DNA of 64,000 nt. Source: Bacteroidales bacterium. GTDB lineage: Bacteria; Bacteroidota; Bacteroidia; Bacteroidales; GCA-2748055. This document shows, one piece after another, positions 19,865 to 48,769 of this stretch. The DNA lies in NCBI GenBank assembly GCA_029210725.1, contig JARGFM010000008.1, forward strand, positions 62,001 to 126,000, read 5' to 3'. Every line of letters begins with the position of its first letter. Position 1 is the stretch's first letter. The position numbers and the translations under genes are program-made. Under the pieces are notes generated by a model that worked only from the letters and a program-made list of their open reading frames with translations, was not told the origin of the DNA and did not search any database.

Positions 19865-20563
19865 TTAAGGGTTTTTTATGCAGCATACGGATAAACCGCT
19901 TTTTTTGTCCGCTATATCGCGCCGGATATCCTGGTCGTCATAGCGCATATCCCGGTACACTAACTTTGGAGAACTTCCATACCAGCTCTTTAAGGTGGAG
20001 CTCCACCATAAACCATAGGTCCGCATCCAGTTAAATGTCCCGTTGTAACTACGATAACCTCCCGGACGCGCTGTAAATCCACTTTCGTTTGTGGCGGCCT
20101 TGTTTGGCGTTTTCCAGTAATCTGTTCCCTCCTCCTTCAAGGCAGCTCCGGCTATTATTGCACCTCCGAAGTACGTTTCAAGCTCGATCCACTCTGCATC
20201 GGTCGGTACGTGCCATCCTTCCTTACAAAGCTCTCCCGATTCGATGGCATAATAATTATACAGGGCCCCGAACTCTTCCCTGTTCAGGGAATCGTTGTTG
20301 TACCACGAATAAGCAGGAAGGCTCAGAGTTGCCCACTCGTCATAATTTTCTACCAGAGCCAGCGGACTGCCGTCACTGAAACGGGTCGTTTTAAGATTTT
20401 CACTCATCCAAACCTGACTGCCAATCTCCACCGTCTTATAGGAATTACCATCCACATCGCTGACTGTCTCACTACTGTTATCCTTTTCCTGACCCGGTTT
20501 GCAGGCCGTCAATAGAGATAAAAAAAAGAAAAAAGAGATGGCTTTAAATACATTGGAACCCAT
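19865..20563 (-). CDS. FISUMP-domain lipoprotein
   Basis: About 232 residues from the ATG at 20563; a GTG at 20587, directly after the upstream stop, would add eight residues. Signal peptide with lipobox LTAC (Cys21). The mature protein matches the Fibrobacter succinogenes major paralogous domain found in many Bacteroidota surface proteins: DGNSYKTVEIGSQVWMSENL, YNYYAI, CKEGWHVPTDAEW, a Gly-rich GFTARPGGYRS, LWWSST, and the closing SVCCIKN. The fold is related to formylglycine-generating-enzyme-like domains, but its function is unknown. It is co-directional with the VCBS gene upstream (stop at 20588), so the two form a small operon convergent with paralog D. Confidence 0.85.
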   Translation of the reverse strand: MGSNVFKAISFFFFLSLLTACKPGQEKDNSSETVSDVDGNSYKTVEIGSQVWMSENLKTTRFSDGSPLALVENYDEWATLSLPAYSWYNNDSLNREEFGALYNYYAIESGELCKEGWHVPTDAEWIELETYFGGAIIAGAALKEEGTDYWKTPNKAATNESGFTARPGGYRSYNGTFNWMRTYGLWWSSTLKSWYGSSPKLVYRDMRYDDQDIRRDIADKKSGLSVCCIKNP

Positions 20564-20587
20564 GGTTCTGCGTTTTCTAAGTATCAC

Positions 20588-21409
20588 TTATTTTTCTGAT
20601 AAAAGGGAGCTGTCGTTGATCCATAAAGTGACTCTGCTCATCCGGTCGAAAGGAGGATAGGGATACATCCCTCCCGTAACAAAATCGACCAGTCCGTCCT
20701 GATTGAAATCACCGCTTTGCATCACCATCAGGTGGGTGGGATCGCTGGCGATGTCCCGCCTGACATACTCCATATCCCCCACATTCTCCAGCCATATAAA
20801 ACTCTGTGCTTCGGGATTCTCCCACAAATTAAACGCACTCACGGCAAACAGATCCAGGTCTCCTGCCCGGATATCCGAGACCCGGGCAATGCGTTCAATA
20901 ATCGTATGCTTCTTAAAATGAAAGTCCCCGTCATTTTCCAGATAAACGATGGACCCGATCTTATCATTGGAAGGGTAAAGCAGGCCCAGAACAGCCACCA
21001 GCAGATCCTTGTCCCCGTCGAAATCAATGGCCTGGGCATGGACCGGGGCAATCAGATCAGAGGCCAGCACTGTTTCCGTATAGGTATCGGCCGGATACTG
21101 CCTGATCCAGGACACAAAGTTATCCAGGGCATCGCAAACAATGACATCCATCAGGCCATCCTGGTCCAGGTCTTCCGCCAGCACATGGGATATCATGGGT
21201 TTTGTGTCGTAATCCAGTCCGATGTGCCGGCGGACCAGAAAGTCTTTCTTCTCTCCCTCGCTTACCGTGCTGACCGGCAGGTTGCCGCTTTCCGACCCAT
21301 CGTTCCGGATCATCTTTCGCTGCACCACCTCCCGGATGGTCATTCCGCTCTTCCCGGACTGGTATTTCAAAATGGCATAGGGGACACCAAGCATTATTAC
21401 CAGCACCAT
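20588..21409 (-). CDS. Short membrane-anchored FG-GAP/VCBS repeat protein, possibly eroded
   Basis: 273 residues with an N-terminal hydrophobic segment (VLVIMLGVPYAIL) and no lipobox. It has FG-GAP-type blades: EDLDQDGLMDVIVCD, SGDFNQDGLVDFVTGG and two blades whose Ca loop looks shortened (DFDGDKDLLVAV and AGDLDLFAVSA; the usual pattern is DxDGDGDxDxxV). The frame is open upstream of the first ATG to a TAA and would encode a Lys/Arg-rich stretch that fits well before the membrane segment, but holds no ordinary start codon; a small indel at the 5' end is possible. The gene may be slowly decaying or simply divergent. It probably shares a transcript with the FISUMP gene downstream. Confidence 0.7.
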   Translation of the reverse strand: MVLVIMLGVPYAILKYQSGKSGMTIREVVQRKMIRNDGSESGNLPVSTVSEGEKKDFLVRRHIGLDYDTKPMISHVLAEDLDQDGLMDVIVCDALDNFVSWIRQYPADTYTETVLASDLIAPVHAQAIDFDGDKDLLVAVLGLLYPSNDKIGSIVYLENDGDFHFKKHTIIERIARVSDIRAGDLDLFAVSAFNLWENPEAQSFIWLENVGDMEYVRRDIASDPTHLMVMQSGDFNQDGLVDFVTGGMYPYPPFDRMSRVTLWINDSSLLSEK

Positions 21410-21736
21410 TACCAGGGTGAGTAAATTTCTGAACCGTTTTTTAAGCTTCTTGTTTTATCTTGAAGAATGCATGGCTGGTGACGTTTTTTTAATCAGATCT
21501 GAGAACACCTTTTGACTGCAAATAAATAACCACCGGGTCCAGTTTGCCCCGACCGGTTTTTTAAATATACTTCTGCCATAAAGCCTTATCCAGACAGGAA
21601 TCTTGAAATTGGTAACATGCTAATTATTGTTTTGACTGCTTTTCCCGCTTTTGGTTTAACCGGAATGTTCAAAACCCGGAAAAAGAAAACCGGTTTTTTA
21701 ACTACATTAGCCCTCAATTATCATTCACCCCAGTTT
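21410..21736. other. Divergent intergenic region (327 bases)
   Basis: It separates the minus-strand VCBS gene from the plus-strand cupredoxin gene and is AT-richer than its flanks. A weak promoter candidate for the plus strand is TTTG at 21543-21546, a 19-base spacer and TATACTTC at 21566-21573. The cupredoxin frame is open back to ATG 21617, so part of this stretch could be translated if that start is used. I see no repeat or RNA element in it. Confidence 0.5.
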
Positions 21737-22132
21737 ATGAGTAATGCCTTTTTAAAGATCCGGAATGTAACTATTGTCCTGATTCTGGGTCTTATTCCAG
21801 CCATTATTTGCCAGTTCTTTACCCGGGAACCCGTCGACCGGTATATTCATATCCGGAATTTCCGTTATGGGAAAGATCCCGCTGTGATCCGCTGCAACCG
21901 CGGCGATACCCTTCATCTGACTTTCTCATCGGATGATACGGGACACTCGTTTTTCCTGGAGGAGTTTGATATTGATTTAAAGGTTAGTCCCGCCGTTGAA
22001 GAGGTGACGGTATTTAAGACCTCGGATCCTTCTGCGACCCCGGTAATCACCAAAGAGCTGATCCTGGTTGCCGGGCATCCGGGAATATTAAACTACGTGA
22101 TTTCAAAAAGCCAGTATCGCTGCCATGTATAG
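21737..22132 (+). CDS. Membrane-anchored CuA-like cupredoxin domain, ending at an in-frame TAG
   Basis: 131 residues from ATG 21737 (an in-frame ATG at 21617 is less likely, as it puts 40 extra residues before the membrane anchor). One membrane segment (about 10-29, VTIVLILGLIPAIICQ) precedes an exported cupredoxin domain. DDTGHSFF (His70) followed by DIDLKVSP resembles the first CuA ligand region of cytochrome oxidase subunit II. The protein stops at CHV-TAG; the same frame continues CGPMH, so the full motif would be C-H-V-x-C-G-P-M-H, matching CuA spacing C-x3-C-x3-H (Cys129, 133, His137). The usual Glu and Met ligand positions hold Val and Glu. The break removes the second Cys and His. Probably originally one protein with the next gene. 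Confidence 0.75.
   Translation: MSNAFLKIRNVTIVLILGLIPAIICQFFTREPVDRYIHIRNFRYGKDPAVIRCNRGDTLHLTFSSDDTGHSFFLEEFDIDLKVSPAVEEVTVFKTSDPSATPVITKELILVAGHPGILNYVISKSQYRCHV
22130..22132 (+). other. In-frame TAG splitting a cupredoxin-ferredoxin fusion gene
   Basis: TAG lies between the two Cys of a CuA-like motif. Both sides are in one frame with coding character throughout (21737-23683, 647 sense codons). A single base change from TAC or TAT would restore Tyr. TAG is used as an ordinary stop for at least three other genes here (550-552, 11254-11256, 23681-23683), so code reassignment is unlikely. Confidence 0.85.
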
Positions 22133-22141
22133 TGCGGCCCC

Positions 22142-23683
22142 ATGCATGCATTTGAACAGGGGAAGCTGCTCATCCTTCCCAATACTTTGCTGTGCTTCAG
22201 CCTGGGAAGCTTTCTGGGTGTGATCCTGATCTGGATTCTCGGCCTGAATGGAAGAAGCAGCAGAAAAGAAAACCCGGGCGATGAAAAAACCGGTATGAAA
22301 GATCTGTTCCGGAGCAATGGTTTCCTGAAAAAACTGCTGGCTTCCCGCTGGCCGCAGTTTATTCTGACCCTGTTCGCCCTGACTCTCATCTATATCGTGA
22401 TCATGACCTCCCTCTTCGGCACCAAGATGTCGGGGCGGAACCTGGGAGTTCTGCTTATGTGGGCCGTGTGGCTCTTTTTAATCATCGGAGTTTTGACTCC
22501 CTTTGCAGGACGCGTCTGGTGCACCATCTGTCCCCTGCCCATGTTTGGCGACCTGATTCAACGTGGGTCCTTTTTTACTCCGAAAGCGGTACGAAGCATG
22601 GGCTATAATAATAAATTCTTCGGGCTTTCACTGAAATGGCCCCAAAGGCTGAGCAACAACTGGCTCCGGCTATTCGTATTTCTGATCCTGGCCACATTTT
22701 CCACCACCATGGTGGCTTCTCCCAGGATTTCGGGTCTGGCCATTCTATTGCTCTTACTGCTGCCGACCCTGATGGCTCCCATCTTTGAATTAAGGGCTTT
22801 TTGCCGCTACCTTTGTCCGGTTCATGCCTTTATCGGCCCTTTCTCGGGTATGAGCAAACTGGCCCTGCGTAATCGCTCGCAGGAGGTATTCGACAAGTGC
22901 AAGGCCCATTACTGTCAGAATGGAAACGCCAGGGGCTGGGCCTGTCCCTACAGCCTGAATGTGGCAGAGCTGAAGGAGAATGCAAATTGCGGACTTTGCC
23001 TGGAGTGCGTACGGTCCTGCACCTATGATAATGTGAGCCTCTATAAAAGGCCCTTTGCATCGGAAAGGAACATGTCCCACATGAGCGATGCCTGGCTTTC
23101 CATCACCATATTTACCATCGCCATCATCTATAGCATACTCTACCTGGGGCACTGGCCTGTTGTCCGCGATTATGTAAACATCCTGGATAAAAAGAACTGG
23201 GATCTCTTCGGCATCTATACTGCTGTTGTCTGGACCACGTCTCTAGTGGTGATGCCCGGATTGCTGTATCTGCTTGCCCGGGCCGGAAGCAGGATCTCCG
23301 TGGCAAAGCTTAGCTCCCGGAAGGTATTCCTGAGCTATACTTCTTCCCTACTGCCCTTTGGCTTATTGCTCTGGATGGCTTTCGTAATCCCCATGCTTTT
23401 TACCAATATCACCTTCGTGCTTCAATCCCTTTCGGATCCTTTTGGATGGGGCTGGGATTTTTTCGGTACCGCCAATACGCCGTGGCACCAGCTTATTCCC
23501 CGCTATATTCCATGGATACAGGCCATCCTGATATTAACGGGACTGCACCTGAGCCTCAGGAATATGACCCGGAGCAGCCGGGAGATGGACACGAAAGCGG
23601 GAAAGCAGGTTCTGATCTCGCTTCCCTATACCCTTTTCATAGCTGTTATCGCGCTTGGCCTTTTATTCTTTTTCACCAATTAG
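22142..23683 (+). CDS. NosR/NapH-like polytopic membrane iron-sulfur protein
   Basis: 513 residues from ATG 22142, nine bases after the TAG and in the same frame. Several membrane helices surround cysteine motifs typical of NosR/NapH/RdxA-like electron carriers: CTICP (Cys127, 130), CRYLCP (Cys221, 225), a Cys-rich stretch at 253-268, and a [4Fe-4S] ligand set CGLCLECVRSC (Cys283, 286, 289, 293). Such proteins move electrons across the membrane to periplasmic redox proteins. The N-terminus (MHAFEQGKLLILPN) reads as the end of the upstream cupredoxin domain, so a restarted product would carry one copper ligand (His2) but no Cys. No nosZ, nap or cbb3 genes are nearby; the electron acceptor is unknown. 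The 3' end overlaps the convergent gene by 21 bases. Confidence 0.85.
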   Translation: MHAFEQGKLLILPNTLLCFSLGSFLGVILIWILGLNGRSSRKENPGDEKTGMKDLFRSNGFLKKLLASRWPQFILTLFALTLIYIVIMTSLFGTKMSGRNLGVLLMWAVWLFLIIGVLTPFAGRVWCTICPLPMFGDLIQRGSFFTPKAVRSMGYNNKFFGLSLKWPQRLSNNWLRLFVFLILATFSTTMVASPRISGLAILLLLLLPTLMAPIFELRAFCRYLCPVHAFIGPFSGMSKLALRNRSQEVFDKCKAHYCQNGNARGWACPYSLNVAELKENANCGLCLECVRSCTYDNVSLYKRPFASERNMSHMSDAWLSITIFTIAIIYSILYLGHWPVVRDYVNILDKKNWDLFGIYTAVVWTTSLVVMPGLLYLLARAGSRISVAKLSSRKVFLSYTSSLLPFGLLLWMAFVIPMLFTNITFVLQSLSDPFGWGWDFFGTANTPWHQLIPRYIPWIQAILILTGLHLSLRNMTRSSREMDTKAGKQVLISLPYTLFIAVIALGLLFFFTN

Positions 23684-26600
23684 GGATCTGGTAAATACTT
23701 CCGTATCGACCACCCGGATATTGTATTCCTCCAGGTAGCGCTTATGTTCCGGATCCGAGGGATAGGCTTCCTCCGGACCATAGGGATAGCGGCTCATGCC
23801 GTGAAATGGCAGGGGTTCAACCGTTTGTCCGTGTGCCGTATTCAGATCCCCGTCTTTCACCCAACCCACACTGTGTACCAGAAAGTCCCTGGTCCAGCCC
23901 TCCGGAAGTACGGGCAGCCTGCCGGCATCGAATTCGATGATGGTTTCATCCCCTGCATTCTTAATCACGTACATATCATCAGAATCCAGGAGGAGGGGCA
24001 ATACATCCCCGAAGCGTGTGTAGTTCCCAGTCAGGTCGCGCCAGATGGGTTCGCTTGTTACCGTGCTGTAATCGAACCAGTGAGGGCCGTATCTTCCCCC
24101 CTTTCTGTAGGTCCTGGAAAATCCCCGGTAGTGCAGTTCGGCCACAGAGGGTTCCAGCCGGGTGGCATGGACCGGTGCATCCGGATCTCCCTGAGAGAAA
24201 AAGATCTGATCCCAGTGTATCTGCATATTGGTCCGGATGCGGATACGGGGATCCGATTTTAATAGTTTTCCGCTCAGGTCGGCCACCATCATTTTATCTT
24301 TGCCCATGGGGAAACCCAGGTTCTCCACGATGGGCGCCCACTCCCCCTCCCCGTTGATGGCCTCGATCATGGGCGGGATCATCCGGAGCCGGTCCGACTG
24401 TGAGATAGATGCATTGATACTGGCATCGGTAGGGAAGATCCATCCATAGAGGTAGAGGTATAGCTTCTGGTCCGTATCGATCTCTCCGGGGTCAATGGTG
24501 ATTTCTGACATCTCGGTAACTCCCTGGTAGGAACCCTGTTTCAAATAAGGCGTATACCGGCTGTCCATTTCAGAGACAATGGGCAGGAGATCGGTCCCGT
24601 ACTGGTCTCTGACAGATTCCGGCTGCAATTGCTCTCCAACCTGGAAGAGCCTGTAACCCGATAAAGCTGGGGGTCCCATACGCTCATCCACATACAAATC
24701 CACACTGTCGGGATGGTCCAGCACCACCAGTCCAATCTTATCCATATAGAGCGTCTCCCATAACTCTCCGGTGACCCGCAGGGTATAGCTCTTATCCTGC
24801 ATCTTCATCTGGTCTCCCGGGATCTTAATATAATCGACCGATGCATCTGAAGGAGCATAGGTGCCGGATTCGCCCATGATGCCCAGGGGCATACCCAGGG
24901 CACTCTGCCACATGATATCCTTGACAAACTGATATTCCTCCCCGTTCCAGGTGTAGAGGAAGGGGCAGGATCCCTTCAGCTGTTGTTGTTCGATCAGGTC
25001 CTGGTTGGTGGCGGGGAAAAACATATTCTGCGGGACCCCGTTGGTCCACAGGATGCGGATGACCTCTGCCTTTTCCCGCAAGCCAAGGCCAAAATGAATG
25101 TCGGGACCGGTAACCACCTTCGACTGATAGAGACTTCCGGCGCGGACCTCCACCTTGGCCCCTATCCCGTAATAGTTGTTCTTGGCGCTTCCTGCCCGGA
25201 GCCCCACCAGCTTCATCTTAATATAGTGATTGTTGTTGCCCCCGTCATTGCGCAGCAGCCGGATGCTTCCATCGGTTCCGGTAATGCCCACATCCAGGTC
25301 CCCATCATTGTTATAATCAAACGCAGTGATGCCACTTCCCGATTTCAGATCATCCGGGAGAATACCGGGGGAGAGCCAGAGTTTCCCGTTTCCGTCACTG
25401 TGATAAAGAATCACCCCTGCTTCGCCTTCCCGTGTGGATTCGCCTGCCACCAGGAGATCCAGGTAACCATCGTTATCAAAATCGAAGAGTTCGGCATCAA
25501 AAACACGTACGTTTTGCAGGCTTGTTCTTACCTCATCCGAGGTAAAATCTTCCGCAAATGTGCCATCTCCCCGGTTCAGGAACATCAGCGATCCGCCGGC
25601 CTCAGAGGAAGCCAGAAAGAGGTCCGGAAATCCATCGTTGTTATAATCCCCCACGCTCACCGCACTGGCTCCATCTATAAAAGGGATCCCAGCCTCCCTG
25701 GTAATATCTCTGAAAATCCCCTGTCTCTGGTTGGAATAGAGCCGGATGTTTCCATCGCTGTTTATAAGCAGTACGTCGATATCCCCGTCCTCGTCAAAAT
25801 CTCCAAAGGCAGCATCCACCGTTTCCGACTCTCCACCTGCAAGGCCCGACCGTTCTCCCTGTTCCAGAAAAGTACCATCCAGGTTGTTCCTGTAGAGCAG
25901 GTTGGCTCCTTCCCTGCCCACCAGAAGGTCCAGGTCACCATCGTGATCATAGTCAAAAAAGAGCGAAGCGGTTCCGGGAAGCTGATCTCCGCCAACCCCT
26001 GCCTGATCCGTAACATCCAGAAAGGACTCCTCTCCGTTGCTCCTGTACAGAATATTGCCTTCGACACCGGCCACATAGATATCCAGGAATCCATCATTGT
26101 CGTAATCAGCGAACTGAACGGAGTGCTCCGCACCCTGATGGCTTATTCCGGATGCCAGGGAGACATCCTGGAAGGAGCCCCATTCATTCTTAAGCAAATA
26201 GTGCCTGTATTCTCCGGTGGCAGGATCCCGGCGGCCGGCATACAGATCCACATCTCCATCCCCGTTATAATCACAGGCTGCCAGGTGGGTGGTCCCCCCG
26301 GTCTGTTCCGGTCCGGATCCTTTCAGCAGAAAATCGAGTCCTGCGGTGGCCGTAATATCGGTAAATTTTATGGCTGCCAGCATCTCCTGCCAGTCCGCCG
26401 CCTGGATACCCATCTGCTGCTCGGCAAAAGTGATGACCGGCGAACCTACCAGCGCCCCTCCCGGCCCTTTCAGATCCATCATGCCGGCCTGGTAGGGGGT
26501 CGTAACTTTCATATAGTTGTGGAAAATCATAAAAGAGACCGCTGCCTTTTCCAGGTCCTGCATTCTCAGGGCCTCCAGGGATTGATCGTAGTATTCAAGT

Positions 26601-27232
26601 GCTTCTTTGGGAAATTCCGGGAAAACCTGCTGCAACTCTTCCAGCAGTGCCAGGGAGCGGTCCGCCTGTCCTTCCTGGATCAGGATCTCCAGAAGGTTGA
26701 GCCGGGGAACAATATTGGCCGGCACCTTCTCCACCAGCGCACCGGTGTACCCGAGACGTTTTTCAAGTGCCTCTTCGCCGGGCATGGAGGCATACAGTTC
26801 TGTTAGGTTAAACAGGGATTTCACATGCCCGGGAGAGAATTCCATAATTTTTTCAAGCTCCTCCACAGCCTTCTCCGGCGCCCCGCCCATCTCATAGACC
26901 TTGGCCAGGATAAGCCTCACATCGGGATCCCCGGGCTGCATCCTGATGGCCTTAAGAAGCCACTCTTCGGCCTTATCAAAGGATCCCATCCGGAGATAAA
27001 CAATACCCAGGTTGGCATAACCCATCACCTCGTCCTCATCCAGGTCAAGGATCTTCAGAAACTCCGCCTCTGCCTCCTCCAGCTTGTTCTCCTCCAGATA
27101 AGCCAGTCCCAGTGTTTTTGCCGAAATCATTTCTTCGGCCCGTTCCGTTTCACTGCCTTTCTGTTGCTTACAACCCTGGTATGACAGTAATAACAAACTT
27201 GTAAGTAATATAATAAAGCTGTTGTATTTCAT
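23663..27232 (-). CDS. TPR - FG-GAP/VCBS - ASPIC/UnbV lipoprotein
   Basis: 1,189 residues, lipoprotein signal ending YQGC (Cys21). Domains in order: tetratricopeptide repeats (about 35-235, e.g. GLAYLEENKLEEAEAEFLKI), FG-GAP/VCBS blades (about 285-640, many DYDNDGFLD and DFDEDGDID loops), an ASPIC/UnbV-like segment (about 650-760, HFGLGLREKAEVIRILWTNG), then a roughly 400-residue C-terminal region beginning near CPFLYTWNGEEYQFVKD that I do not recognise. This differs from the four large paralogs at the window start, which lack TPRs and have a second propeller in place of this tail. Probably surface- or periplasm-exposed, with TPRs for protein contacts. No enzyme motif seen. It lies between the redox membrane gene (convergent) and a divergently transcribed redox lipoprotein, but a shared role is only a guess. 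Confidence 0.88.
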   Translation of the reverse strand: MKYNSFIILLTSLLLLSYQGCKQQKGSETERAEEMISAKTLGLAYLEENKLEEAEAEFLKILDLDEDEVMGYANLGIVYLRMGSFDKAEEWLLKAIRMQPGDPDVRLILAKVYEMGGAPEKAVEELEKIMEFSPGHVKSLFNLTELYASMPGEEALEKRLGYTGALVEKVPANIVPRLNLLEILIQEGQADRSLALLEELQQVFPEFPKEALEYYDQSLEALRMQDLEKAAVSFMIFHNYMKVTTPYQAGMMDLKGPGGALVGSPVITFAEQQMGIQAADWQEMLAAIKFTDITATAGLDFLLKGSGPEQTGGTTHLAACDYNGDGDVDLYAGRRDPATGEYRHYLLKNEWGSFQDVSLASGISHQGAEHSVQFADYDNDGFLDIYVAGVEGNILYRSNGEESFLDVTDQAGVGGDQLPGTASLFFDYDHDGDLDLLVGREGANLLYRNNLDGTFLEQGERSGLAGGESETVDAAFGDFDEDGDIDVLLINSDGNIRLYSNQRQGIFRDITREAGIPFIDGASAVSVGDYNNDGFPDLFLASSEAGGSLMFLNRGDGTFAEDFTSDEVRTSLQNVRVFDAELFDFDNDGYLDLLVAGESTREGEAGVILYHSDGNGKLWLSPGILPDDLKSGSGITAFDYNNDGDLDVGITGTDGSIRLLRNDGGNNNHYIKMKLVGLRAGSAKNNYYGIGAKVEVRAGSLYQSKVVTGPDIHFGLGLREKAEVIRILWTNGVPQNMFFPATNQDLIEQQQLKGSCPFLYTWNGEEYQFVKDIMWQSALGMPLGIMGESGTYAPSDASVDYIKIPGDQMKMQDKSYTLRVTGELWETLYMDKIGLVVLDHPDSVDLYVDERMGPPALSGYRLFQVGEQLQPESVRDQYGTDLLPIVSEMDSRYTPYLKQGSYQGVTEMSEITIDPGEIDTDQKLYLYLYGWIFPTDASINASISQSDRLRMIPPMIEAINGEGEWAPIVENLGFPMGKDKMMVADLSGKLLKSDPRIRIRTNMQIHWDQIFFSQGDPDAPVHATRLEPSVAELHYRGFSRTYRKGGRYGPHWFDYSTVTSEPIWRDLTGNYTRFGDVLPLLLDSDDMYVIKNAGDETIIEFDAGRLPVLPEGWTRDFLVHSVGWVKDGDLNTAHGQTVEPLPFHGMSRYPYGPEEAYPSDPEHKRYLEEYNIRVVDTEVFTRSLIGEKE

Positions 27233-37864: not shown

Positions 37865-40642
37865 ATGAGCAGCCTTCAAAAAAGACTTTCCGGCGCCATC
37901 GGCAAAAACCTAGTTCACACCGACGATCTGACCCTGATTTCCACTGCAGCAGATGCAGGATGTTACCGCAAGATACCAAAGATTGTACTGAACCCGCAAA
38001 CGGAAAAGCAGCTTATTGAATCCCTGAGAATTCTGAATGAAACAGGAACTCCGGTCACTTTCCGTGCGGCCGGGACCAGCCTTTCCGGGCAGGCCATCTC
38101 CGATTCCGTACTTCTGCAGGCCAGGGGGGATCACTGGAGCCATTATGAGATTCTGGAAGAGGGTCGCCTGATCAAAGCTGAACCGGGAATCACCGGCACC
38201 AGGCTCAATCAGCTTCTGGCTCATTCGGGGATGAAATTCGGTCCCGATCCGGCCTCCATCTCTTCAGCCATGGTGGGCGGAATTATTGCCAATAATGCCA
38301 GCGGGATGAGCTGCGGGATCCATGCCAACAGCTATGCCACCATAAGGTCTGCCCGAATCATCTTTCCGGATGGCACCCTGCTGGATACAGCCAGCAGGGA
38401 AAGTTGTGAAAGCTTTCTCGGGTCCAGACCGGAACTGGTTTCAGTCATCATGAAGATCCGGGACGAAATCCTTTCCAGGCCTGAGCTTGTTAATAAGATC
38501 CGGAAGAAATACAGCATTAAAAACACCACCGGTTACGGGATGAACGCCTTCCTGGACTATGAAGACCCCATAGAGATCATCCTCCACCTGATGGTAGGTT
38601 CCGAAGGCACCCTGGGCTTCGTATCAGAAGCCACCTTTGCCACCCTTCCGCTTAAGCCATTCAGGGCCTCCTCGCTGATTTACTTCAAAGACCTGGAAGC
38701 GGCCTGTAATGCCGTTCCGCTGTTAAGGGAAGCCAGAGTCCCCGCCATTGAGATCATGGATCGCAAAGCCCTCCGGTCGGTGGAGAACAACAAGGGTATT
38801 CCGGAGTACCTCAAATCGCTGGGCAGGGAAGTGACCGCCCTGCTGATCGATCTGGAGGAAGAAAGCCCCGAGGCACTGGACACACTGATCGAAAGAACCC
38901 GGAAAGCTCTTTCGGGCTTTGAGCTGGTCAGGGATTTCGAAGTGACCACCGATCTGAAACAGATCACGGATTACTGGAATGTCCGCAAAGGGGTCTTCCC
39001 TTCAGTGGGAGGAATGCGTAAACCGGGAACCAGCGTGATTATCGAGGACGTGGCCGTCAGCGCGGAGCACCTGACAGACGCCGTTATGGAAATGCGCCGG
39101 ATGCTCGACAGGCTGGGCTATGAAGAGGCTGTCATTTATGGTCATGTGCTGGACGGGAATCTCCATTTCATATTTTCCCAGGACTTTCACAGGCCTGAAG
39201 AGCTGAAGCAATATGAAGAAATGATCCTTCAACTCACCAGGCTGGTCGTGGATAAGTATGACGGATCCCTGAAGGCCGAGCACGGCACCGGGCTTAATAT
39301 GGCCCCTTTTGTTTCCTATGAATGGGGGGAGGAGCTTTACTCTTTTATGAAAGAAATTAAGCAAACCTTTGATCCCGGGGGCATCCTGAATCCCGATGTG
39401 ATTATCTCCGGGGACCCTGAGCTTCATCTTAAGAATTTTAAACCGATGCCCGTCATCGATGAGGCGGTGGACCAGTGCATCGAATGTGGTTTTTGTGAGA
39501 TTAACTGCCTCACCACCGGACTGACTCTTTCGGCCCGTCAGCGTATTGTGGTTCAGCGGGAAATCGAGCGGTTGAGCCGCCTGGGCAAGAGCCCCGAAAA
39601 AGTCCGGAGCCTCGGCAAAGCCTTTGCATATCAGGGTGAGGGCTCCTGTGCGGGAGACGGACTCTGTGCAGTCACCTGTCCCCTCTCCATCGATACCGGT
39701 GTTTTGATCAAACACCTGCGTGCCAGAAACAATGAGCGGAAACGGCCCGGGAATCCCATCGCCACCCGGATCGGAGAGCACTTCCCGGCGATTCACTTTT
39801 TTGTGAGGTCGGGATTGGGATTTATGACCGCACTGTACAGACTCATCCCATTTAAAAAGATCTGGATCTGGGACCATCATATGCCCCGGCCGGTGAGGAA
39901 GAGCGCCCTGAAAGCGCCTGAATATTCAGGTGAAAAGGGAAAGAAGAAGGTGGTCTACTTCCCCAGCTGCATCAACCAGAGCATGGGGACCGCCGTACGG
40001 GAAAAACAAAAGAAATCTCTGGTGAAGGTGACGGTGGAAGTCCTGGAGAAGGCAGGCTTTGAGGTAATCTGTCCGGAACACATGAACAGGCTCTGTTGCG
40101 GTACTCCCTGGGAGAGCAAGGGATTCTTTGACATTGCCGATGCCAAATCCGGTGAACTGGAGAAAGCCCTTCTAAAAGCCAGCCAGGATGGAGCATACCC
40201 GGTGCTCTGCGATACCAGTCCATGCACCCACCGGATGAAACGGGTCATGACAAATAAGCTGGACCTTTACGAACCGGTAGAGTTTATCCACGACCACCTG
40301 CTGGACAAACTGGATCTGAAAAAAACGAAAGAAGCCCTGGCCTTCCATGTGTCCTGTACCAGTACCAGGATGGGGCTGGAGGAAAAGTTCAGGGCCGTGG
40401 CCAGGGCATGCACGGAGAACCCGGTCTTTCCGGAAGAGGTCGGTTGCTGCGGTTTTGCGGGAAATAAAGGCTTTACCCGGCCCGAAATTAATACCTGGGC
40501 CCTGAGAAACCTGAAACTGCAGGTGGACCGGCTTGCGGCAGGCTATTCCAATAGCCGGACCTGCGAAATTGGGCTCTCCCGGAACAGCGGAATTGACTAC
40601 AGATCCGTGATGTACCTGGTGAGGGACTCCATCAAAGAATAA
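37865..40642 (+). CDS. FAD-linked 2-hydroxyacid dehydrogenase fused to Fe-S (GlpC-type) domain
   Basis: 925 residues, no signal peptide. Order: PCMH-type FAD-binding domain (about 35-215, TFRAAGTSLSGQAI, GGIIANNASGMSCG), FAD-oxidase C domain (about 230-520, VYGHVLDGNLHF-type HVLDGN block and KAEHGTGLNMAPF), a ferredoxin-like region with CIECGFCEINC (from Cys538) and CAGDGLCAVTCP, and a C-terminal pair of CCG domains (CCGTPW and CCGFAG). This is the layout of quinone-linked D-lactate or D-2-hydroxyglutarate dehydrogenases, in which electrons pass from FAD via Fe-S to the membrane. The exact substrate is not evident. Its last 11 bases overlap the convergent GH16 gene. Confidence 0.93.
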   Translation: MSSLQKRLSGAIGKNLVHTDDLTLISTAADAGCYRKIPKIVLNPQTEKQLIESLRILNETGTPVTFRAAGTSLSGQAISDSVLLQARGDHWSHYEILEEGRLIKAEPGITGTRLNQLLAHSGMKFGPDPASISSAMVGGIIANNASGMSCGIHANSYATIRSARIIFPDGTLLDTASRESCESFLGSRPELVSVIMKIRDEILSRPELVNKIRKKYSIKNTTGYGMNAFLDYEDPIEIILHLMVGSEGTLGFVSEATFATLPLKPFRASSLIYFKDLEAACNAVPLLREARVPAIEIMDRKALRSVENNKGIPEYLKSLGREVTALLIDLEEESPEALDTLIERTRKALSGFELVRDFEVTTDLKQITDYWNVRKGVFPSVGGMRKPGTSVIIEDVAVSAEHLTDAVMEMRRMLDRLGYEEAVIYGHVLDGNLHFIFSQDFHRPEELKQYEEMILQLTRLVVDKYDGSLKAEHGTGLNMAPFVSYEWGEELYSFMKEIKQTFDPGGILNPDVIISGDPELHLKNFKPMPVIDEAVDQCIECGFCEINCLTTGLTLSARQRIVVQREIERLSRLGKSPEKVRSLGKAFAYQGEGSCAGDGLCAVTCPLSIDTGVLIKHLRARNNERKRPGNPIATRIGEHFPAIHFFVRSGLGFMTALYRLIPFKKIWIWDHHMPRPVRKSALKAPEYSGEKGKKKVVYFPSCINQSMGTAVREKQKKSLVKVTVEVLEKAGFEVICPEHMNRLCCGTPWESKGFFDIADAKSGELEKALLKASQDGAYPVLCDTSPCTHRMKRVMTNKLDLYEPVEFIHDHLLDKLDLKKTKEALAFHVSCTSTRMGLEEKFRAVARACTENPVFPEEVGCCGFAGNKGFTRPEINTWALRNLKLQVDRLAAGYSNSRTCEIGLSRNSGIDYRSVMYLVRDSIKE

Positions 40643-41711
40643 GCATCTGCCGGGTACTTGTATTGCTTCCGGCCTGAAGGCGGTAAGAATATAAACCCGG
40701 TTCAAGGATTCTGGCTTCCACGCCCACCGTGTGTGATCCGGGCCCGTAGCGTTCATTTGCCAGGGTTTGCACCTTTCTTCCGGTCAGGTCAAACACTTCC
40801 AGCAGCACATGTTGCTCGGAGGGAAGGGAAAAGGTGATGCTTGAATAATCGCCAAAGGGATTGGGGTGGTTCTGCCCCAGCTCCATCTGCAGGTCCTGCT
40901 CCAGCACGCTATTGTAAACAGGTTCGTAGACTCTCACATAATCGATCACCAGATCCTGGGGAAAAATGGTGCTCAGGTCGGGCGATCCGGGCCAGTTCCC
41001 GCCCACGGCCAGGTTGATCAGCAGGTGAAATCTCCGGTTAAAGGGTGCCGGGAAAGCAGCAGCACTGCTGTACCACATCCCGGTACCCAGGTTCTGGTAT
41101 CGTTCTTTATCCACATACCAGCGAAGCTCTCCCTCTTCCCACTCCAGGGCGAAGGTATGAAACTTGCTGTGGAAGGCGGTGTCATCTGTTATATAATCCG
41201 TTCCCCGGGACTGGTTTTGCGGATATGGCCCTCCATAGTGGATGGTCCCGTGCACCCGGGTGGTGTCGTGCCCCAGGTATTCCATGATATCGATCTCACC
41301 GCTGGCGGCCCAGTTGCCATAATCATTGTCCGTAGGAAGCATCCAGATAGCGGCCCAGAGTCCCTGTCCCACAGGCATCTTTGCCCGGAATTCAAAGCGC
41401 CCGTAGGTCCAGTCGCCCAGGTTGATGGTCCGGATCCTTCCCGAAGTAAACTGGCTCGTAGCAACATTCTCTCTTTTGGCTGTAATGGTCAGCATCCCAT
41501 CGGCCACCTTCACATTCTCCTCTTTGTAATACTGCAGCTCATTGTTTCCCCAGCCGTCCAGGCCGTATTCCGAACCCGTTCCGGTCATGTAGGACCACTT
41601 GTCCGTATCCAGGGCATCCCCGTCAAACTCATCGGACCACACCAGTTGCCAGTTCTGGCCGCTTAAAGTTGCAGCTAGGATAAAAAAACCAAATACAAAC
41701 AAGTGCTTCAT
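40632..41711 (-). CDS. GH16 endo-beta-glucanase (laminarinase-like) with T9SS sorting domain
   Basis: 359 residues, signal peptide about 1-18. The GH16 domain covers about 20-275: WSDEFDG, GWGNNELQYY, the catalytic block GEIDIMEYLG (Glu139 nucleophile, Glu144 acid/base by family), and WYVDKERYQ. The complete E-I-D-I-M-E motif is the non-kappa-carrageenase type, fitting beta-1,3(4)-glucan hydrolysis. The C-terminal about 80 residues are a type A T9SS sorting domain (NHPNPFGDYSSITFSLP, LEVFDLTGRKV, PGLYSYRL, RQMLIL), so the enzyme is secreted across the outer membrane. It is single-copy and not in a PUL here. Confidence 0.95.
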   Translation of the reverse strand: MKHLFVFGFFILAATLSGQNWQLVWSDEFDGDALDTDKWSYMTGTGSEYGLDGWGNNELQYYKEENVKVADGMLTITAKRENVATSQFTSGRIRTINLGDWTYGRFEFRAKMPVGQGLWAAIWMLPTDNDYGNWAASGEIDIMEYLGHDTTRVHGTIHYGGPYPQNQSRGTDYITDDTAFHSKFHTFALEWEEGELRWYVDKERYQNLGTGMWYSSAAAFPAPFNRRFHLLINLAVGGNWPGSPDLSTIFPQDLVIDYVRVYEPVYNSVLEQDLQMELGQNHPNPFGDYSSITFSLPSEQHVLLEVFDLTGRKVQTLANERYGPGSHTVGVEARILEPGLYSYRLQAGSNTSTRQMLIL

Positions 41712-41723
41712 GATCCTTTCCTG

Positions 41724-43073
41724 TTATTTCTTAATGCAATACAGTTTCTTATCTCCTTTAAATATATAGGCGTCCCCCGCCACAGCTACGGATGCCCAGA
41801 AACGGTCATCCAGGCTGTTCTCGTGCAAGAATTCAAATTCCCGGCCTGCCCGGATTACCTTGGTGATCCCCCTTTCGTCCGTAAAGAAGATCTTGTCCGC
41901 ATGCGCCCATGGGCTCGCCCAGCAGGCTCCGACACCATCCAGTTTTTCCTGATAAACGATCTCTCCCGTTTCAGCATCCAGGCAAGCCAGTTCGCCGCCC
42001 CTGCTCCCTAAAAGGTACAACAGCCCTTCATATAAGAGCGGGGATGGATTTCCGGTCGGGGCATCCGCCTTAAACCAGGCCAGTCCCTCCCTGGAAGCGC
42101 TGATGGAATCCGGGGAAATATCTCCTTCTGCTCCGGCCTTAATGGCAAAAAATGTTCCGGGTACATCCCGGAAGCCGGCATTGCCCATAAAAAGAAGAGT
42201 GTCGCTGGCCACAGGACCCGGTATGCTGTACCTTCCGTCCATCCGGAGTTCCCAGAACAATTCACCGGTAAGCGGATCATAGGAGCGAGCCCTGAGCCCC
42301 CCGGTCACCAGCTCGGTCCGCTTACTGTTCTTCCAGATAAAGGGAGTGCTGTAGCTGGTCTTCTCATCGCGCTTCACCCTCCATATCTCCTCACCGCTTT
42401 CCGGATCCAGTGCAAGCAGGAAAGAATTCTCTTCATTATCCACCTGTACATATAAACGGCCTTCATAAAGTAACGGAGATGCTCCCGTACCCCATCCGTT
42501 CTGGGTCTCATACGCACCCAGGTCCTTTTCCCAGACCAGCTCTCCCTCCAGGGTAAAGCAGTACAGCCCATTCATGCCAAAATAGACATATACTTTCTCT
42601 CCATCCGTTACAGGAGTCTCCCCGGCATAATTGGTATTGGGGTGCCTGGAAGTCCTCGGATTGCCCCTGCGGGCTACTCTTTTCCATATCTCCTCCCCGG
42701 TGAGAAGGTCCACACAGCTGACTTCCCAGCGATAAACATCCATCAGGTAGAGGTTCTGGTTTTCCTGTCCGGCGGAATCTCCCCCCTCCCCTGGTTTATT
42801 AATTTTCTCAGGGACCACCGTAGCCAGGAAGATCCTGTTGCCCCATACAACAGGTGAAGCCCAGCCATCACCCTCAACTTCATAGGTCCATGCCACATTC
42901 AGATCCTCCCCCCATTCATCCGGCAGATTCTCGCCTTCGGCAATCATACGGGCATCGGGCCCCCTGAACTGTGGCCAGTTTTTGTTTGACGCATTAGTGC
43001 AGGAACTTACAAGGATCATAGATACAATGATCATCCATCCGGTTCCGGATACTTGAGGAAGGGAAAGTTTCAT
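41724..43073 (-). CDS. PQQ-like (BamB-like) beta-propeller lipoprotein
   Basis: About 449 residues from ATG 43073; an upstream in-frame start at 43136 would precede the signal peptide by 21 residues and is less likely. Lipobox VSSC (Cys25). After NWPQFRGPDA, typical of Bacteroidota and planctomycete PQQ-repeat proteins, come repeated blades with paired YVYFGMNGLYCFTLEGELVW-like strands and ALDPESGEEIWRVKRD, SFLLALD, ACLDAETGEIVYQEKL. No PQQ-binding dehydrogenase residues are recognisable, so it is more likely structural or substrate-binding than a quinoprotein enzyme. Downstream GH16 is 12 bases away in the same direction, so both may be co-transcribed. Confidence 0.88.
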   Translation of the reverse strand: MKLSLPQVSGTGWMIIVSMILVSSCTNASNKNWPQFRGPDARMIAEGENLPDEWGEDLNVAWTYEVEGDGWASPVVWGNRIFLATVVPEKINKPGEGGDSAGQENQNLYLMDVYRWEVSCVDLLTGEEIWKRVARRGNPRTSRHPNTNYAGETPVTDGEKVYVYFGMNGLYCFTLEGELVWEKDLGAYETQNGWGTGASPLLYEGRLYVQVDNEENSFLLALDPESGEEIWRVKRDEKTSYSTPFIWKNSKRTELVTGGLRARSYDPLTGELFWELRMDGRYSIPGPVASDTLLFMGNAGFRDVPGTFFAIKAGAEGDISPDSISASREGLAWFKADAPTGNPSPLLYEGLLYLLGSRGGELACLDAETGEIVYQEKLDGVGACWASPWAHADKIFFTDERGITKVIRAGREFEFLHENSLDDRFWASVAVAGDAYIFKGDKKLYCIKK

Positions 43074-43177
43074 AATATTTGGTACATAGTTGAAAACTCG
43101 GGATACAAGATAAACCATCTTCCCCATATTCCCCAATCAAGAATTTCAACAGAATGCTCCGACAGTGAATTTCTGAA

Positions 43178-45191: not shown

Positions 45192-45337
45192 ATGTTTATT
45201 TTCAGATAATCATGAGGATAGTCCTGTCTTGTCAGCTCCCTGCCTGACTGGCATTAAACCTTTTTGCTTCTCTTTGATCTAAAACTAAAAGAATACTCAG
45301 TTTTGTTATATTTTTAAACCTACTAAATACGACAATC

Positions 45338-45997
45338 ATGAAATACTATCTGATAATCGCCACCGCCCTGCTGGTCTCATTTACCGCACAGGCCCAAACC
45401 AGGGCTCTTCAGGGCAAACTGACCGCATATAACTCCTTCCCGGTAATGAACGTGGAGGTTAGCTCCAAAAAGGCAAAAGCCACGACCATGTCCGACTCCC
45501 TGGGGAACTTTTCGATCGTGTGCCAGGAGAAAGATGTGATCATGATCAAACCCAAAGGCTTCCAGCCGGTGAATGAAAAAGTGAGCGCTGATACCGATAC
45601 CCTGAAAATCAACCTGATATTTATCGATACAAAAAAGAACCGTGAACTGGCGGTAAATTCCGGATATATGACCGAGACCAATCTGAATTATGCCGTGGCC
45701 AACCTGCAGGAGGAGAACAACGATTACTGCAAGTACTCGGACATCCTCTCCCTGCTCAGGGCACTGGGTTCAGGCATTACAGTCTCCAACGGCGGAGTCA
45801 TCACCATCCGTGGCGGCAATACCTCCTTTTCCGGAATGGACCAGGCCCTGATTGTGGTTGATGGACAGCCCACCACCAGTATCGACTGGATACAACCCTG
45901 TAATGTCAGATCCGTGAATGTTTTGAAAGGCTCTGACGCGGCCATTTACGGATCGCGCGCAGGGAACGGGGTGGTAGTGATCACTACCAGAAACTAA
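45338..45997 (+). CDS. Stand-alone TonB plug-domain protein without beta-barrel
   Basis: 219 residues: signal peptide (MKYYLIIATALLVSFTAQA), a short carboxypeptidase-regulatory-like domain (about 22-95, ALQGKLTAYNSFPVMNVEVS) and a SusC-type plug domain (about 125-219, ITIRGGNTSFSG, ALIVVDGQPT, SDAAIYGSRAGNGVVVITTRN). It ends in TAA exactly where a barrel would begin; the following bases start another gene, so this is a complete small protein, not a truncated SusC in this assembly. Such barrel-less plug proteins exist in Bacteroidota, possibly as TonB interactors, but the role is unknown. It is 12 bases upstream of the S9 peptidase gene. Confidence 0.88.
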   Translation: MKYYLIIATALLVSFTAQAQTRALQGKLTAYNSFPVMNVEVSSKKAKATTMSDSLGNFSIVCQEKDVIMIKPKGFQPVNEKVSADTDTLKINLIFIDTKKNRELAVNSGYMTETNLNYAVANLQEENNDYCKYSDILSLLRALGSGITVSNGGVITIRGGNTSFSGMDQALIVVDGQPTTSIDWIQPCNVRSVNVLKGSDAAIYGSRAGNGVVVITTRN

Positions 45998-46009
45998 GCC
46001 TTAACACTT

Positions 46010-48769
46010 ATGAAAATTTTGGCCGGGCGCTTTCTTCTCGCCCTTTTCCTTAGCCTGTGCACCCTGGGGCTTGCTGCACAGGAGAACCGGGCCATGGAGG
46101 TCACTGATATTATGAAGTTTCAGCAGATTGAATCCCCCTCGGTCTCGCAGAATGGCCTTTGGGTGGTACATGCTGCTGTACCCGACCGGGGCGATCCCCG
46201 GGTGCTGGTCTACTCCAGTGACGGCCAGGTGCAGTATGAAATGGCCGGCAGCAAAGAACCGCTTATTTCGAACGACGGGCTCTGGATTGCAGCCGTCAAG
46301 GCTGTGCCGGCCAGTGAGCAAATGCTATCGGCGAAGGAAAAGAATCAGGGATCAAAAACCGGAATGCTCCTTTTAAATACTTCGACCGGAGAAGAGTTCT
46401 CCTACGAAAATGTGAAGTCGTTCACTTTCAGTAATAACAGCAGATGGCTGATTTATCATCACCATGGTAAAGAAGCTGAAAAAAAGGAGGACGAAAAGAA
46501 TCAAAAAAAACTGCAGGCGGGAAGCACCTTAACCATCCTGGAGCTGGGGAAAGCAGAAGGGGATAGCATCGCATTTGTATCAGCCTTTGCCCTGGATAGT
46601 ATTTCTCAGCACCTGGCCTATGTGGTGGCCGACACCGGGCAACTGGAGAACGGGATTTACTCGCTTGGTTTGTCCGCTCGCTCCGCCTCTCCGCTTACCC
46701 TCTATGCCGGCAGCAGTTCCTGGGCCGGAGAACTGAGCTGGAACAGCCGGACCGGGCAACTGGCATTCCTGGCAGGAGTGACCACGGATAAGGGAAAAAA
46801 GGGGGAAACCGGTCTATACCTGTGGAGGCCGGGAGCAAGGGAAGCTGAACGGGTGCTTTCAGACGAAGAACTTCAGAAGGAGTGGAAGATCTGGCACAGC
46901 AATAAACTACAATGGTCCAAAGACGGGCAGCGGCTCTTTCTGGGAACCAAACCCGGTTCTGAAATCCCTGAGCCGGAAGAGGAGAAACCCGACTCACTGA
47001 AAAGCCTTTACAGCAGTGAGGATATCCTGGCCGAACGGACCGTGGATGTATGGCACTGGAACGATCCTTACATTAACACCCACCAGAAGAAGAGGTGGGA
47101 ATCTGAAAAGAACCGCACCTATACCGGGGTATATTACCCGGACGAGGATCGTTTCGTCCAGCTGGCAGATCCGAAGATGCCCGATATCAGGATCCCAGAA
47201 AACCCTCATACAGCTCTGGGTTCGTCCTCACTACCCTATGCAAAGCGTATGACCTGGGATGGCCGTTACAGCGACTATTATCTGGTGAACCTGAGCTCTG
47301 GAAAGAAAGAACTGGTGCTAAGCGAACAACAGGGCAGTCCCTCCCTGTCGCCCGATGGAAAATATCTGAGCTGGTATGAAGACGGGGACTGGTACCTGAT
47401 GGATGCCCACAGCCTTGAATCCAGGAACCTGACTTCTGAGCTGGAAGTTCCTTTTGCTGATGAGGACTGGGACTACCCGGAAGATACACCGGGCTATGGA
47501 GTGGCCGGCTGGCTGGACAGTTCGGAAGCCCTGCTGCTCTATGACAAGTATGATATCTGGCAGTTTCCTGCCGTAACGGGCAGTCCGTTCTGTCTGACCG
47601 GGGGCAAAGGAAGGGAGGAAAAACTGCAGTTCAGAATCAGGGAACTGGACCTCGGGAAAACCTGCCTGGAATCCGGGGAACAATTGTTCCTTTCGGCTTA
47701 TCATGATCTCGAAAAATATACAGCAGTCTACCAGATGAAAGCAGGGAAACCGGGCGTATCCCCGCTTTCGGTCGGATTAAAAAAATACAATCTGCTGGCA
47801 AAGTCCAAAGAAGCCGACCTGCTCCTGTTCACCCGGCAGTCCTATACCGAATACCCGGACCTGTGGGTCACAGATCTGAAATTCAGGAACCCAAGAAAAC
47901 TTTCCGATCTGAATGCCCAGACCAGGGGCATTGCCTGGGGGGAGGCTGAACTGGTGGAATGGTCCTCTCTGGATGGCACCCCCCTGCAGGGGATCCTGAT
48001 CAAACCAGGAAATTACGAAGCAGGGAAAAAGTATCCGGTCCTGGTTTACTACTACCGCTTCTTCTCCAACCGTCTGTATGACTTTAACCGGGTGGAGTTA
48101 AGCCACCGGCCGTGCTTTCCCTTCTATGCAAGTAACGGCTATGCTATTTTTCTGCCCGACATTCGTTTTGATATTGGAAATCCCGGGTACTCGGCCACCA
48201 AATGCCTGGTACCAGGGGTACAGAAGCTGATCGACTCGGGCATTGCCGATCCCGGCGCCATTTGTCTGCACGGCCACTCCTGGAGTGGTTACCAGACTGC
48301 CTTTGCCATAACCCGGACCGATTTATTCACCTGCGCTATCGCCGGGGCTCCGGTCGCCAACATGACCTCTGCCTACAGTGGCATCCGCTGGGGAAGCGGG
48401 CTGGCCAGGCAGTTCCAGTATGAGAAATCGCAAAGCCGTATCGGGGGCAGCCTGTGGGAAGCCAGGGACCTGTATATTGAAAATTCCCCGGTCTTTTTCG
48501 CCGACCGGATTGAAACCCCTTTATTGATCATGTTTGGTGACGAAGATGATGCCGTGCCCTGGTACCAGGGCATTGAACTCTACCTGGCCATGCGCAGACT
48601 GGAGAAGGAGTGTCATTTCCTGCAGTACAGGGACGAACCGCACCATCCCAGGAAGTATGCCAACAAGCTGGATTGCACCCTGAAATACAAAGAGTACCTG
48701 GATCATTACCTGAAGGGGGAACCGGCAGCCGACTGGATCCTTACCGGGGTCCCTTATAAGGGAAAGTAA
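46010..48769 (+). CDS. S9-family prolyl-oligopeptidase-like serine peptidase, secreted
   Basis: 919 residues with a signal peptide (FLLALFLSLCTLGLAAQ). An N-terminal beta-propeller-like region (about 30-640, DPP IV/PREPL type with repeated SPSLSPDGKYLSWYEDGDWY-like blades) precedes an alpha/beta-hydrolase domain (about 660-919). Catalytic motifs are GHSWSGYQTAF (Ser757), GDEDDAV at 843-849 and DEPHHPRK at the C-terminus for the His. Such enzymes release dipeptides or cleave after Pro in the periplasm. It is co-directional with the plug-only gene 12 bases upstream; the pair may be co-transcribed, which would link peptide processing to a TonB-associated protein. Confidence 0.93.
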   Translation: MKILAGRFLLALFLSLCTLGLAAQENRAMEVTDIMKFQQIESPSVSQNGLWVVHAAVPDRGDPRVLVYSSDGQVQYEMAGSKEPLISNDGLWIAAVKAVPASEQMLSAKEKNQGSKTGMLLLNTSTGEEFSYENVKSFTFSNNSRWLIYHHHGKEAEKKEDEKNQKKLQAGSTLTILELGKAEGDSIAFVSAFALDSISQHLAYVVADTGQLENGIYSLGLSARSASPLTLYAGSSSWAGELSWNSRTGQLAFLAGVTTDKGKKGETGLYLWRPGAREAERVLSDEELQKEWKIWHSNKLQWSKDGQRLFLGTKPGSEIPEPEEEKPDSLKSLYSSEDILAERTVDVWHWNDPYINTHQKKRWESEKNRTYTGVYYPDEDRFVQLADPKMPDIRIPENPHTALGSSSLPYAKRMTWDGRYSDYYLVNLSSGKKELVLSEQQGSPSLSPDGKYLSWYEDGDWYLMDAHSLESRNLTSELEVPFADEDWDYPEDTPGYGVAGWLDSSEALLLYDKYDIWQFPAVTGSPFCLTGGKGREEKLQFRIRELDLGKTCLESGEQLFLSAYHDLEKYTAVYQMKAGKPGVSPLSVGLKKYNLLAKSKEADLLLFTRQSYTEYPDLWVTDLKFRNPRKLSDLNAQTRGIAWGEAELVEWSSLDGTPLQGILIKPGNYEAGKKYPVLVYYYRFFSNRLYDFNRVELSHRPCFPFYASNGYAIFLPDIRFDIGNPGYSATKCLVPGVQKLIDSGIADPGAICLHGHSWSGYQTAFAITRTDLFTCAIAGAPVANMTSAYSGIRWGSGLARQFQYEKSQSRIGGSLWEARDLYIENSPVFFADRIETPLLIMFGDEDDAVPWYQGIELYLAMRRLEKECHFLQYRDEPHHPRKYANKLDCTLKYKEYLDHYLKGEPAADWILTGVPYKGK

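Follow-up and report, generated by a model that had tools for sequence, protein, structure and literature searches.

We found that lesions at one locus of the window (the whole stretch of DNA analyzed here, 64,000 nucleotides in length) affect both a fusion gene and its divergent partner while the neighboring genes stay intact. Because of this pattern, we prefer decay of the whole module, and a recently decaying two-gene redox module is very probably the best explanation of the locus. The in-frame TAG at positions 22130–22132 of the forward strand splits the 648-codon frame 21737–23683, whose natural stop is another TAG (23681–23683), into 131 codons on the 5΄ side and 516 on the 3΄ side. Around it the translation reads R-C-H-V-stop-C-G-P-M-H, with the first frame ending in R-C-H-V and the second opening with C-G-P-M-H; the upstream His of the fusion, H70, lies within DTGHSFF. 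The possible restart codon noticed in an earlier sequence-only reading, an ATG at 22142, is indeed present 9 nt past the premature stop. The fusion gene is single-copy in the genome (3.81 Mb, 70 contigs), and no second or intact copy was found elsewhere in this 98.6% complete assembly. The features of the locus are as follows.

19865–20587, reverse strand: FISUMP-type flanking gene, intact (control)
20588–21472, reverse strand: partner gene, a membrane-anchored FG-GAP/VCBS propeller, broken; its ATG at 21472 is kept
20861–20866, reverse strand: junction of an in-frame deletion of ~168 codons in the partner; nearly four of seven blades gone
21455–21457, reverse strand: premature TAA at partner codon 6, which is a Gln codon (CAA or CAG) in relatives L009–L012
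21473–21736: spacer between the divergent start codons, 264 nt versus ~73 nt in L009, exceeding that of the nearest relative by ~190 bp
21737–22129, forward strand: N-terminal half of the broken fusion, residues 1–131, transmembrane anchor and CuA-like cupredoxin; candidate ligands H70 (21944–21946) and C129 (22121–22123)
22130–22132, forward strand: premature TAG, codon 132; a Trp codon (TGG) in each of the 37 distinct relatives
22133–23683, forward strand: C-terminal part with C133, H137 and E140 (Met position), then the NapH/NosR-like membrane ferredoxin; natural stop at its end, possible restart ATG near its beginning
22589–22591, forward strand: codon 285, GTA (Val); Gly in all relatives
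22889–22891, forward strand: codon 385, TTC (Phe); Cys (TGC or TGT) in all relatives, the first Cys of the CxxCx4C...CP iron-sulfur motif
23663–27232, reverse strand: TPR/FG-GAP/UnbV-ASPIC flanking gene, intact (control)

Among 84,980 species genomes scanned, 38 loci carry relatives of the fusion, two of which (L007 and L040) encode an identical protein, so that tallies of 38 relatives mean 37 distinct ones. The relatives align over their full length, with the TAG position included, and a stop lies inside none of them. At codon 132, the 37 loci whose frame continues through the site have TGG without exception; the residue is thus Trp in every relative rather than Tyr, as the sequence-only reading had guessed. 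Two of its other proposals, that the frame is coding on both sides of a single TAG and that a cupredoxin–ferredoxin fusion was intact until recently, agree with these alignments and with the full-length fusions of the 37 distinct relatives; homologs that always end at this point as two separate genes are not what we observed. Five genomes of the same genus encode one unbroken protein of ~650 residues with 70–87% identity over its whole length. Hosts of intact fusions include the cultured Prolixibacter bellariivorans (L028) and one Deltaproteobacterium (L042), the others being Bacteroidota. Because the frame runs on with TGG in the relatives, the sequence comparison indicates that the unbroken fusion is the normal state and the window copy the exception.

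Two further observations concern the wider set of loci. In a Lac Pavin Bacteroidia MAG (L041, 2750–5427), the fusion lacks residues 1–174 (the copper domain) and has a frame shift near residue 297, and the partner lacks residues 292–398 and also contains a frame shift; the same pair is broken there by lesions unlike those of the window, which suggests independent losses or poor assembly. Neighbors that recur at the loci of intact modules (L009–L046) are a TPR protein (18 loci), a small cytochrome c (11 loci), a BamA-like outer membrane protein (10 loci) and a PQQ-type propeller (8 loci).

We compared the window fusion with the 142 alignment columns that are invariant across all relatives, and found that it departs at three of them (W132 to stop, G285V and C385F), compared with no departures in the three nearest relatives; not one relative has lost a Cys. 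The C385F substitution removes a likely cluster ligand. By themselves, G285V and C385F are weak evidence of decay, because some distant relatives also depart at one to three invariant columns. Taken with the rest of the locus, the gene has the marks of a unitary (single-copy) pseudogene formed by recent inactivation: a disabling change relative to intact orthologues at the same locus, and further lesions in the form of C385F, G285V and the stop and deletion of the partner, with the dN/dS of the fusion not yet raised.

At 37 of the 39 loci, the window included, the divergent partner adjoins the fusion. Within the genus the module is patchy (6/18 genomes), and the partner occurs at high similarity in exactly the same six genomes as the fusion (Fisher's exact test, P = 5e-5); a search of the genus located a stop inside the partner in the window genome only. 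The deletion junction in the window reads GGAGACCTGGA, and the two corresponding places in L009 both carry GACCTGGA, for which reason the deletion likely arose by slippage between short repeats. The intact partner is predicted to fold into seven blades with 28 strands (pTM 0.81), and its best fold matches are CRTAC1 (9etn) and aldos-2-ulose dehydratase (4a7k). It matches the Pfam family FG-GAP_3; by sequence, it had no match among solved structures at E 0.001. The partner thus resembles these FG-GAP seven-blade propellers in predicted fold. However, it differs from them in being membrane-anchored, in adjoining the fusion and in having invariant Cys, His, Trp and Tyr residues of its own, among many invariant positions that include H146, H243, H339 and H418. 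A second propeller copy, 62% identical, is present in genome G009 (L094, 1486–2880; also in G003), where its neighbor is a TPR gene and no accompanying fusion gene was detected. The propeller may accordingly have another partner besides the fusion.

Both flanking genes are full length. The extra DNA of the spacer contains two copies of ACCGGTTTTTTAA, roughly 135–140 bp apart; a mobile insert was considered for the spacer, and the 282 bp tested had no other copy in the genome. The two other in-frame neighbor pairs opened as candidate interrupted frames in the window (45278–48769 and 40632–43136) turned out to be distinct genes.

For the window and its nearest relative, dN/dS was 0.060 in the first half of the fusion and 0.074 in the second (~0.07). 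What is left of the partner gave ~0.10, compared with 0.05–0.10 among relatives. Such low values (fusion ~0.07, partner ~0.10) indicate that purifying selection acted on the module during almost the whole divergence, that constraint was lost late and that the decay is recent.

With regard to the copper domain, the best match in a profile search with the intact family was the CuA domain from subunit II of Thermus cytochrome ba3 (1ehk/2cua; E = 7.6e-4), and CuA domains were the top fold matches of the structure predicted for the intact protein of L009 (pTM 0.83; E about 0.004–0.02, probability 1.00). Both results point to a cupredoxin fold as in a CuA site. H70, C129, C133 and H137 are invariant in the relatives, so that all of them share the first His and the two-Cys/two-His C-x3-C-x3-H spacing with the CuA domain from subunit II of cytochrome c oxidase; in the window, the TAG cuts this site, and the copy is truncated within it. 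However, where a CuA site has its axial Met, 11 residues after the first Cys, all members of the family have Glu (E140), an unusual residue for such a site; its codon in the window is 22154–22156. The CuA-like site proposed in the sequence-only reading is therefore supported by its spacing, its upstream His and its profile and fold matches: the term 'CuA-like' is correct, yet the ligand set of CuA is incomplete. In contrast to subunit II, the domain is joined to a membrane ferredoxin and not to an oxidase. Trp132 of the family corresponds to Tyr152 in Thermus numbering. A link to N2O reduction was considered and rejected: the CuA part matches NosZ weakly, and the only match of the genome to the NosZ profile scored 22 bits over the last 59 positions of the profile (cut-off 625 bits).

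The membrane part contains the Cys motifs C262xxC265P, C356x3C360P, C385xxC388x4C393x9C403P and C418xxC421xxC424x3C428 in the family. Its match to the NapH/MauN profile (NCBIfam TIGR02163) is weak but genuine (33.7–35.7 bits, the latter corresponding to E = 6.5e-9) and falls far short of the cut-off of 213 bits, and the NosR profile gave no significant match (E = 0.086). Proteins of the NosR, NapH and RdhC types have a common membrane module with two CX3CP motifs, for which a role in quinol oxidation is proposed in the case of NapH; NosR and RdhC have, in addition, an FMN domain at the outer face (PMC5928378). The family has in common with NapH/MauN and NosR the paired Cys-Pro motifs and two groups of cluster Cys residues, and these, with the weak TIGR02163 match, uphold the earlier description of this part as NapH/NosR-like. 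NosR likewise joins an extracytoplasmic redox domain to such a membrane part (PMC5928378). In the family, however, this domain is a CuA-like cupredoxin rather than a covalent-FMN domain, and the C-terminal end has ~200 additional residues of helices compared with NapH and NosR.

Other explanations of the TAG have to be weighed against decay. A consensus or assembly error, in which the TAG is miscalled and the genome truly encodes an intact fusion, is improbable, although it would require only a single G-to-A difference in a draft assembly of 70 contigs that may hold consensus errors, and both halves of the fusion look strongly constrained. Such an error leaves unexplained the codon-6 stop and the 168-codon deletion of the partner, the lost cysteine and the lengthened spacer, and all lesions are confined to the module, with none in the flanking genes. 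Readthrough or recoding of the TAG as an amino acid, yielding the full fusion, is the least likely of the explanations considered: the frame is open before and after the TAG, but the 40 tRNAs found in the genome all have ordinary anticodons, with no CUA anticodon and hence none able to read UAG (the one Trp tRNA has CCA), and recoding or suppression is rejected on this ground. Other long frames in the window end in TAG, which thus terminates ordinary genes, as the sequence-only reading had argued; moreover, no relative has TAG at codon 132, and readthrough could not repair the partner, whose stop is TAA. That reading had retained a lone sequence error and readthrough as its alternatives, and the presence of several lesions in both genes makes either unlikely.

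It is also very unlikely, and only slightly less so than readthrough, that the locus encodes a working split, in which the first half is made as a short cupredoxin anchored in the membrane and translation restarts at ATG 22142 to give the membrane ferredoxin as a protein of its own. The ATG is near enough to the TAG for translational coupling, and both halves still resemble constrained coding sequence. The split fails because the stop sits between the two copper cysteines, so that neither half retains the copper site; furthermore, the ferredoxin part is without a cluster cysteine, the partner is broken, and no relative is divided at the TAG position. Translation of the fusion would halt at the TAG between these cysteines, and a restart would give a membrane ferredoxin lacking the copper domain and one cluster ligand; neither broken gene is expected to yield a functional product. 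Against decay of the module, the two substitutions at invariant sites (G285V and C385F) are few by themselves, nonsynonymous substitutions are not in excess, and the deletion in the partner is in frame, which leaves some room for a shortened partner product.

In the intact ancestor, the NapH/NosR-like membrane part would take electrons from quinol, and electrons would pass between the iron-sulfur clusters, facing the cytoplasm, and the CuA-like site in the periplasm. This site would serve the membrane-anchored propeller (an enzyme or a docking protein) or another periplasmic acceptor. A literature search for the fusion or the intact module returned nothing relevant, and no published description was found in the papers covered. 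We tentatively propose, as a possibility rather than an expectation, that the intact pair is an undescribed respiratory or redox module in which a NosR-like protein, its flavin domain replaced by a CuA-type site with Glu for Met, exchanges electrons, in one direction or the other, with a membrane-anchored seven-blade FG-GAP propeller as the enzyme, and that the window represents its loss in one lineage. The puzzle of the TAG is settled without exotic decoding, as one nonsense codon among several lesions of a patchily kept module. The breakage itself is ordinary, and the intact two-gene unit, which appears to be undescribed, is the more interesting object: the pair looks like an uncharacterized system for electron transfer whose copper site has an unusual set of ligands, and Prolixibacter bellariivorans is a cultured carrier of it.
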